64,000 bases of DNA from a bacterium. Its GTDB lineage: Bacteria; Actinomycetota; Acidimicrobiia; Acidimicrobiales; Bin134. The notes below the pieces were generated by a model that saw only the letters and a list, made by a program, of their open reading frames with translations, was not told the origin of the DNA and did not search any database. Location: contig JAPOVT010000057.1 of assembly GCA_026708015.1 (NCBI GenBank), forward strand, positions 1 to 64,000. Reading direction: 5' to 3'. Positions 34,759 to 51,870 of this stretch are shown here, piece by piece (the stretch's first letter is position 1; every line of letters starts with the position of its first letter). Both the position numbers and the translations under genes were made by a program.

Positions 34759-34947
34759 TCAATCCACCCGGATAGCCCGGGTGGGGCACCGCACTTCTGC
34801 CTCCCGCACCGCGGCCTCATGCTCCGCGGGCACTTCTTCCATCACGGCTCGGGCATAGCCCGCGTCCTCCAGCACGAAGACCTCGGGGCACAGCGCTGTA
34901 CACACGCCGTGGCCACCGCAAACGTCATCGTCCACCGACACCCTCAT
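34759..34947 (-). CDS. Small [3Fe-4S]/[4Fe-4S] ferredoxin of cytochrome P450 type
   Basis: This 62-residue ferredoxin has a single iron-sulfur cluster site: Cys10, Cys16 and Cys20 in DDDVCGGHGVCTALCPEVF and a last cysteine in VRCPTRAI. His13 occupies the position of one usual cysteine, as in a known actinobacterial group that serves P450 enzymes. Its ATG overlaps the P450 stop by one base (TGATG). It should pass electrons from a reductase to that P450. No ferredoxin reductase is in the window. Confidence 0.92.
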   Translation of the reverse strand: MRVSVDDDVCGGHGVCTALCPEVFVLEDAGYARAVMEEVPAEHEAAVREAEVRCPTRAIRVD

Positions 34948-36233
34948 CAGGAATCGGCGCCCACCGGGTTGAACTCGAGGCCGAGGAAGGCCAGTCCCCG
35001 CAGGATGTGGGTGGGCACGTAGACGAAGCGCCGCTCGCCGGGCGGACCGTGCGTCGCCTCGGACATTCGGATGTCGGCCATGCGGTCGAGGATGCGATTG
35101 AGGCTCACCCGGGCCTCGGCCCGGGCCAAGGGGGCGCCAGGGCAGGTGTGGATGCCCCGGCCGAAGGCCAGGTGCAACCGTGCGTTGTCCCGCTCGATGT
35201 CGAGGGTGTGGGGATCGGGGAACTGGTGGGGATCGCGGTTGGCCGCCCCGTTGATCACCATGACCGTGGTGCCTGCCGCTAGAGCGACCCCGCCGACGGT
35301 CACCGGGCGCTGGGTCAGGCGGAAGTCGCCCTTGATCGGGCTCTCGATGCGCAGCGCCTCTTCCACGAAGTTGGGGATCAGCGAGCGGTCGCTGCGGATT
35401 CGGCTCTGGAGCTCGGGATCCTCGGCCAAGAAATACAGCATGGTGCTGAGCAGCCGCACGGTGGTCTCGGTGCCGGCCGCGAAAAGGTTGGCGGCGATAC
35501 GCACTGCGTCGAGCACCTCGGGGGTGGAGCCGTCGGGGAAGGTTGCGGTGGCCAAGCCAGTGAGCACGTCGTCGCGGGGGTTGGCCCGGCGGTCCTCGAT
35601 GTAGTCGCTGAACTGGTTGTAGAGAAACTCGAGGGGGTTGTGGGCCATGGCGTGCTCGTCGGTCGAGCCGATGCCGTGGTCCTCGGGTCGGTGCAGGAGC
35701 TGCCGGGTGAAGTTGTCCCGATCGTCGTCGGGCACCCCCAGCAGATCGGCCACCACCAAAAGGGCGAACGGCTGGGCGAAATCGCGGATGAACTCGCACT
35801 GGCCCTGCTCGATAAAGGCGTCGAGCTGACGGTCGGCCAGCCGCCACATGAACTCCTCGTTCTCGCTCAGGCGCTTGGGGGTGATGAGCCGCATGAGCAG
35901 AGACCGGTGGGCGGTGTGGGCCGGCGGATCCATGGTGGGGAGCTGATCCGACATGGGCAGCTTGTCGCGGTGCTCGGCGATGAGACCGCTTATGTCGTCG
36001 CCCTCCAACGGCACCGGGAATCCGGGGAAGGGCCCCGACACTGCGTTGCAGGCTGAGAAGCCGTGGTTGTCGTTGTAGACCTCGATGGCCTCGCGGTAGC
36101 CGGTAATCATCATCACGTTGTGGTGGGGCTCGGGATGCACCGGGCACTGGGAGCGCAGGTGGTCGAAGTACCCGTAGGGGTCGGCCACCAATTCGGGGTC
36201 GGTGAAGAAGTTCCGGCTGTCCAGCTCAGTCAT
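34947..36233 (-). CDS. Cytochrome P450
   Basis: This 428-residue soluble P450 has the oxygen-activating I-helix motif AGTETT (about residues 253-258), ExxR at Glu292-Arg295 in EEALRIE, and the haem motif FGRGIHTCPG with axial Cys364. The family cannot be assigned from these motifs. The ATG at 36233 lies eight bases inside the end of the LivHMG fusion gene, so the P450 is translationally coupled to the transporter. A ferredoxin gene follows with one-base overlap. The order transporter-P450-ferredoxin suggests that an imported molecule is hydroxylated. Confidence 0.95.
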   Translation of the reverse strand: MTELDSRNFFTDPELVADPYGYFDHLRSQCPVHPEPHHNVMMITGYREAIEVYNDNHGFSACNAVSGPFPGFPVPLEGDDISGLIAEHRDKLPMSDQLPTMDPPAHTAHRSLLMRLITPKRLSENEEFMWRLADRQLDAFIEQGQCEFIRDFAQPFALLVVADLLGVPDDDRDNFTRQLLHRPEDHGIGSTDEHAMAHNPLEFLYNQFSDYIEDRRANPRDDVLTGLATATFPDGSTPEVLDAVRIAANLFAAGTETTVRLLSTMLYFLAEDPELQSRIRSDRSLIPNFVEEALRIESPIKGDFRLTQRPVTVGGVALAAGTTVMVINGAANRDPHQFPDPHTLDIERDNARLHLAFGRGIHTCPGAPLARAEARVSLNRILDRMADIRMSEATHGPPGERRFVYVPTHILRGLAFLGLEFNPVGADS

Positions 36234-51800: not shown

Positions 51801-51870
51801 TTCCGACCCCCTTGTCATTGCCAGCTATCTGGGAACAGATAATCGGGCCATCACCCGATCCAACCTTTGA
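48844..51870 (+). CDS. Fused Liv-type ABC permeases and ATPase (LivH-LivM-LivG), copy B
   Basis: This 1008-residue protein has a LivH-like part (about residues 10-365) with GIVLTFRSTKVINFA, a LivM-like part (about 390-700) with VTGWSGQVSLAQMSFAGIG and RRSGVGRGTIAIRDN, and a LivG ATPase from about residue 750. The ATPase has Walker A GTNGAGKST, Walker B LLCLDEPTAGV, switch IIEHDMP and the unusual signature LSTGTRR, as in copy A. The LivH part has an extra insertion of about 45 residues with a cluster of charged residues near 175-210. The C-terminal stop overlaps a TTG of the phosphatase B frame. Confidence 0.9.
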   Translation: MFSAVLAASRINPQVMFNGAVTGIVIGLLAMGIVLTFRSTKVINFAVGNMGLIGGMLLPLLVLQYNFPFWVAVALVLVMGAVFGGIVELIVIRRLFRSPRVILLVATVGVAQLCQVIPLTYPELDVKGIRRYPVVTSASWRPFEALGVSEVQLWTVLAAPAVIAAVGWGLLALRTHKDRSSRRNTWLSTWVVGLAVTFGVLALVSGGGEPKGIRVSGTQLTILVAVPLVALGLYLVLNRTWFGKNVAAAAEDPDLSRLAGVNPKVVSTFVWVIAGLISTIAIVLLSGQSGSVANLGGLGASTLARALVAAAIAGMTSFPRAMAAGMYLGIIEFTIQFNFLEQPGLFEFLLLLAVLGAVALQRSQRLSTESFSFTPKVPSVPDHLRQIWWIRHMSRIGFGVGLLALIVLPLIITQPSRNLAYASVLAFALCASSLTVVTGWSGQVSLAQMSFAGIGALTAAALTRGIEMDFWFIDFNADPIPFALAVFIAPLLTALLAAVVGVGALRVQGLMLAVTTLVLALAASLYIFRRPIFTDGNARTVPFLRGDLFGINLASQRNYYYFCLVLLTVVLFILARLRRSGVGRGTIAIRDNVEAASAYTVSPTRMKLSAFALAGGIVGLGGAVLAGLVQSIPLSERFFTVDDSIRLVGIVVIGGLGTIIGPVLGALWIEGLPSLFDDSSVVALFTSSIGLLLVVMYFPGGFVQILYSWRSSGLRWAENRYGLSRPPKGARGSVQLPASHRVSADTGEAVLETHNLSVAFGGNQALSGASLSVPHNRIVGLIGTNGAGKSTFMNAVGGFVPSGGEVRLNGTEISRLAPHRRALLGLGRTFQGATLFPELTVRETVQVALEARDRTPILAAAAGLPPSARISRAQRAAADEIIDFLGLGRYGDSYVGDLSTGTRRIVEVGGLLALDAHLLCLDEPTAGVAQREAEAFGPLLVSINHELQSSMLIIEHDMPLIMSVSDHVYCLEAGQVIADGTPEQVRSDPLVIASYLGTDNRAITRSNL

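Follow-up and report, generated by a model that had tools for sequence, protein, structure and literature searches.

Can the motor subunit of an ATP-binding cassette (ABC) importer be permanently joined to a carrier of the major facilitator superfamily (MFS), and what would such a carrier do there? This question is raised by positions 1 to 64,000 of contig JAPOVT010000057.1 (assembly GCA_026708015.1), a 64,000-nucleotide stretch from a bacterium of the Acidimicrobiia (Acidimicrobiales, Bin134), which is called the window here. The window holds two systems, copies A and B, of a conserved importer family of Acidimicrobiia and some other Actinomycetota in which the motor ATPase is permanently joined to an unrelated MFS transporter. 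A sequence-only reading of the window had described in each copy a complete MFS carrier fused to LivF, a LivH-LivM-LivG fusion (LivHMG) two bases further on and a lipoprotein substrate-binding protein (SBP). Open reading frames (ORFs), Pfam matches and a structural model agree with this description: the MFS part has all 12 helices, the lipoprotein is of the LivK type, and the gap between the MFS-LivF and LivHMG genes is exactly two bases in copies A and B alike. The core genes are the following (aa, amino acids):

36226..39135, minus strand: copy A LivH-LivM-LivG fusion (LivHMG), 969 aa (BPD_transp_2 in two stretches, ABC_tran, BCA_ABC_TP_C)
39138..41339, minus strand: copy A MFS-LivF fusion, 733 aa (ORF; Pfam MFS_1 E 2.5e-39, ABC_tran 6.2e-25)
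41384..42907, minus strand: copy A lipoprotein SBP, LivK-like, 507 aa (Peripla_BP_6 E 7e-7, under the curated cut-off; lipobox AASC)
45034..46545, minus strand: copy B lipoprotein SBP, divergent from the copy B transporter (Peripla_BP_6 weak; family profile 1.4e-60)
46619..48841, plus strand: copy B MFS-LivF fusion, 740 aa (MFS_1 E 1e-31, ABC_tran 4.2e-28)
48844..51870, plus strand: copy B LivH-LivM-LivG fusion (LivHMG), 1008 aa (BPD_transp_2 in two stretches, ABC_tran, BCA_ABC_TP_C)

The SBP gene of copy A lies upstream of its transporter in the same direction, whereas that of copy B is divergent. The two copies are inverted within the window, as had been described, but they are not the whole complement of the organism: its genome contains four MFS-LivF systems, two of them outside the window on contigs C56 and C5, each with MFS-LivF followed by LivHMG and with an SBP nearby. 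The copies in the genome are diverged, with 43-49% identity to copy A. Copies A and B are only 42% identical in MFS-LivF and 49% in the main LivHMG block, indicating old paralogues and no recent duplication.

The source genome is a draft in 67 contigs, and a frameshift or mis-assembly might have united separate genes. This explanation is refuted and retains practically no probability, as the same fusion was found at more than 100 independent loci, in single-contig genomes and on a complete replicon of Embleya sp. NBC_00888 (Streptomycetaceae), where MFS-LivF, LivHMG and SBP genes are consecutive. The splitting of the genes by corrected frameshifts, which the sequence-only reading had held open, did not occur. 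A search for homologues with both domains in one protein gave full-length matches in 63 of 296 Acidimicrobiia genomes (46 of 210 among those of good quality); as scoring was confined to the three best candidates of each genome, the copy numbers are lower bounds. In a sample of Actinomycetota, 19 of 396 genomes match, including families outside Acidimicrobiia, and single genomes of this kind have up to nine matches, the nine occurring within about 3 Mb of genome. In a plasmid search, only the Embleya match spanned most of the query, and the range beyond Actinomycetota has hardly been sampled. The MFS-LivF / LivHMG architecture is established.

When the MFS part was used alone as the query against 84,980 species genomes, 133 relatives were obtained and 79 loci were kept; the MFS is fused to LivF at 78 of these, and the remaining one is truncated by a contig end. 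In the source genome itself, the four fused MFS parts score 475-510 bits and the best other MFS scores 85 bits. On the LivF tree, the MFS label has to change three times, in agreement with a single gain of the MFS followed by a few losses, with support for the fused clade (94/84) just under the strict threshold. MFS and LivF distances are correlated with r = 0.84 (none of 999 permutations was as high), as expected for one old fusion.

One locus deviates from this picture. At L156:7836-9788 of a near-complete metagenome-assembled genome (MAG), MFS-LivF is reduced to a frame of 650 aa and a separate LivF frame lies alongside, likely due to a frameshift or sequencing error. Three contigs labeled as Bifidobacterium breve MAGs (L169, L170 and L188) bear the Acidimicrobiia-type system and cluster among freshwater actinobacterial matches; these labels are probably wrong.

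The importer itself appears complete. In non-redundant sets, LivF has the near-invariant motifs GTNGAGKST (Walker A GKST), LSGGQQQ and IDELSLGLAP (Walker B DE), and the LivG motifs Walker A, LSTG, DEP, AQxE and EHD (H-loop) are likewise near invariant. NCBIfam models for LivG, LivF and Urt proteins match the ATPases, yet under their curated cut-offs. The LivH and LivM permease domains are both present, as two BPD_transp_2 stretches per LivHMG protein, and LivH, LivM and LivG are conserved beside MFS-LivF. All five kinds of parts of a Liv-type (HAAT) importer, LivK/J-LivH-LivM-LivG-LivF, are therefore represented, with a LivK-like SBP fold, the BPD_transp_2 pair and intact LivG and LivF motifs. 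Unlike in the known Liv-type importers, the parts are fused (LivHMG here, LivHM plus MFS-LivF-LivG in relatives), LivF bears an N-terminal 12-transmembrane (12-TM) MFS carrier, and the characteristic motifs are DELSLGLAP in LivF and LSTGTRR and GVAQRE in LivG.

In copy A, the 12-TM MFS covers approximately residues 53-477 of MFS-LivF and is followed by a helical linker and the LivF-type ATPase at approximately residues 495-728. The AlphaFold2 model of this protein has a predicted local distance difference test (pLDDT) score of 87.7 and shows a full 12-TM MFS with helices at 58-487. Foldseek matches of the whole model are filled by the ATPase part. For the MFS part, human SPNS2 is the closest structure by fold (Z 42.5, root-mean-square deviation 3.1, 395 residues aligned) and the bacterial spinster HnSpns is the best solved relative by profile (E 1e-41). 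The spinster family (HnSpns, SPNS1/2; Transporter Classification (TC) 2.A.1.49) is thus the closest in both sequence and fold, but known spinsters stand alone and are only about 18-20% identical to the MFS part, which is fused to an ABC ATPase. MFS motif A is kept (R123 in 100%, D119 in 90% and R120 in 94%), a TM1 acid (D/E71) is present in 64 of 69 MFS sequences, and a TM4-region arginine in 50 of 69. Divergence is faster in the MFS part than in LivF (mean identity 33% versus 57%), and the median dN/dS over 31 pairs is 0.075 for the MFS and 0.047 for LivF, values that point to strong purifying selection on the MFS part. A degenerate MFS or ATPase was rejected on residue conservation and dN/dS, and the loss of key residues across homologues that the sequence-only reading had considered was not observed. 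These features suggest that the MFS part is a complete, spinster/SPNS2-like carrier that is probably transport-competent.

The junction between the two parts is also conserved. In the model, the last MFS helix is continuous from 438 to 487 and runs on towards LivF, and in 144 of 145 sequences 58-61 residues separate the invariant D467 from Walker A. The continuous helix and the near-constant linker length indicate that the MFS and LivF are probably held in a fixed relation. The view that the arrangement is a stable functional unit, which had been put forward from the gene order of the two copies, is now strongly supported: the arrangement is conserved across the class and beyond, probably goes back to one fusion, has intact ATPases and a linker of fixed length, and is under purifying selection.

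Three gene arrangements are found among relatives: MFS-LivF / LivHMG, LivHM / MFS-LivF-LivG and MFS-LivF / LivHM / LivG. The position of the MFS, N-terminal to LivF, is constant and the other joins vary. Three lineages without the fused MFS (L233, L235 and L240) fall within or beside the fused clade in the LivF tree. The LivF-LivG protein of L233 is nested among fused proteins and is 75.5% identical to that of a syntenic fused relative, L250. The run in L233 consists of a NUDIX gene, a separate MFS gene of another subfamily, a gene for a 603-aa protein with no Pfam match (47% identical to the L250 protein at the equivalent place), LivHM and LivF-LivG; the gene order of L250 matches, except that the separate MFS gene is missing and the MFS is fused instead. 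At L235:6266-10012, a single 1248-aa polypeptide contains LivH, LivM, LivF and LivG but no MFS, making it a one-chain Liv ABC transporter; the next gene downstream, on the same strand, encodes a separate MFS protein of another subfamily. Among the families listed for 52 neighbor genes of seven basal MFS-less systems, there is no strong MFS_1 match. The unfused MFS genes beside two of the three MFS-less lineages suggest that the system wants an MFS carrier, which may be supplied from a separate gene, and this fits a working carrier better than a scaffold.

What the MFS part does was left in the sequence-only reading between receiving the imported substrate and acting as a structural or exchange partner. 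The favored explanation, in which belief and doubt are about evenly balanced, is a Liv-type importer (branched-chain-amino-acid family) with a working secondary carrier attached to LivF that serves the same nutrient pathway. The complete spinster-type carrier would be permanently joined at the LivF N-terminus; the lipoprotein SBP would bring an organic solute to LivH and LivM, and the LivF/LivG ATPase pair would power its uptake. Since LivF is expected to pair with LivG as a heterodimer, there should be one MFS unit per complex, which would export or exchange a related product or counter-solute, or provide a second uptake route, while the rigid extension of its last helix would keep it next to the importer. 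The evidence does not point to a hand-over of substrate from the importer to the carrier, and LivH and LivM should already deliver the substrate to the cytoplasm. An exclusively structural role is disfavored, since the carrier retains its gating motif and TM1 acid, and two fusion-less lineages have an unfused MFS gene beside the operon. The MFS part as a mere anchor or passenger, retained just to help LivF assemble or find its place in the membrane, would agree with its faster evolution and with basal relatives that manage without it; its low dN/dS and its conserved motif A and TM1 acid make this very unlikely, and a passenger would not need replacing by another MFS. Several observations weigh against a working carrier in a shared pathway. 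The third MFS-less member, L240, has no MFS gene nearby, the argument from unfused MFS genes concerns two loci only and MFS genes are common anyway, and MFS variation tracks LivF more than the SBP (partial correlation given LivF of 0.29 for MFS-SBP and 0.69 for LivHM-SBP), so the MFS and the SBP need not share a substrate. In addition, the rigid linker and the conservation of the cytoplasmic motifs would also be compatible with a sensor.

In such a sensor or regulator (transceptor), the MFS part would bind accumulated solute and switch the LivF ATPase off or on through the rigid helix, with no net transport. The continuous helix 438-487 into LivF and the constant linker length are consistent with this, as are the invariant residues R123, D174, R217, R315, R406 and D467 on the cytoplasmic side, the remainder being variable. 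However, the TM1 acid and TM4-region arginine that are typical of transporting MFS proteins are retained, and in two relatives separate MFS genes, unrelated and without the linker, stand in for the fused MFS; we regard a sensor as possible and somewhat unlikely. A primary and a secondary transporter mechanically coupled in one complex, a true ABC-MFS hybrid in which ATP use by LivF/LivG would gate or drive the MFS, is a degree less probable. Less probable still is that LivF, with LivG, energizes or gates the carrier so that a secondary carrier becomes a primary pump, in the manner of ArsA and ArsB. In its favor, an intact ATPase is covalently coupled at a fixed length to a carrier whose gating motifs are intact, but LivF keeps its normal partners, LivH, LivM and LivG being adjacent and conserved; the MFS has no known ABC coupling helix, and the MFS-less L235 has all four Liv parts in a single chain. 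In ArsAB, too, a membrane carrier works with an ATPase; that system, however, consists of separate subunits, lacks an SBP and a second permease pair, and its ATPase ArsA is not of the ABC type. A precedent for the sensor exists in the sensor kinase-MFS fusions named as TC family 2.A.1.34 (PMC3924187), in which an MFS carrier is likewise joined to a cytoplasmic domain with a role in energy or signaling; that domain is a histidine kinase, whereas the partner here is an ABC ATPase that has a permease of its own. No published description of an MFS-ABC fusion was found in the open-access literature, outside of which most subscription journals fall, in line with the sequence-only reading, which knew of no functional description.

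The substrate was approached from the SBPs and from the neighboring genes. The SBPs are LivK-like and are matched by LIV-binding profiles, and the AlphaFold2 model of the copy A protein (pLDDT 85) has the type-I LivK fold (Z 30.1). Reading the substrate from this fold was rejected, as leucine, aromatic-acid, urea and amide binders all lie within about 2-3 Z. The genome has eight clear members of the SBP subfamily and one partial match for four transporters, and two of these are orphans in the window; with this surplus, several solutes may share one transporter. A lone LivG-like ATPase of the LivG subfamily (355 aa) is also encoded in this genome at L241:9158-10225 on contig C13, with no LivF, LivH or LivM recognized alongside. 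The other features of the window are the following:

11731..13221, minus strand: orphan SBP of the same subfamily, no permease gene recognized alongside (family profile 2.5e-82; Peripla_BP_6)
24754..26379, minus strand: second orphan SBP of the same subfamily (family profile 7.9e-55; Peripla_BP_6)
34759..34947, minus strand: ferredoxin (Fer4_15/Fer4_13), final gene of the copy A run (Pfam; start overlaps the P450 stop)
34947..36233, minus strand: cytochrome P450, start adjoins the LivHMG stop (Pfam p450 E 1.9e-24; junction sequence)
42962..44194, plus strand: PhyH (phytanoyl-CoA dioxygenase family) gene between systems A and B (Pfam E 1e-33)
44213..45019, minus strand: second Y_phosphatase3 gene, directly after SBP B (Pfam E 1.8e-55)
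51867..52697, plus strand: tyrosine-phosphatase-family gene (Y_phosphatase3), overlaps the end of copy B LivHMG (Pfam E 2.6e-63)
52699..53622, minus strand: RpiR-type regulator (HTH_6 and SIS), adjoins copy B (Pfam)

Copy A continues into the P450 and ferredoxin genes and copy B into the tyrosine-phosphatase-family gene, with gene ends that overlap or nearly so. Around copy B, one Y_phosphatase3 gene ends each of two divergent transcription units, with the RpiR-type regulator adjacent, which might hint at a phosphorylated substrate. In the C5 copy (L032:8841-10469), a sulfatase gene lies between the SBP and MFS-LivF, and amidohydrolase and CoA-transferase genes are nearby. The neighbors thus vary by copy, which suggests differing organic substrates and not plain leucine uptake. 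The P450, amidohydrolase, CoA-transferase, sulfatase and phosphatase genes differ among loci, and the neighbors point to no single substrate.

ABC transporters and MFS carriers are assigned to distinct energy classes, and in this conserved family both are united in one polypeptide. The MFS-LivF proteins would lend themselves well to studying whether a secondary carrier can be coupled to ATP hydrolysis. For the Acidimicrobiia, which are hard to culture, the family suggests that importers that are likely annotated as 'branched-chain amino acid' transporters may be something else.
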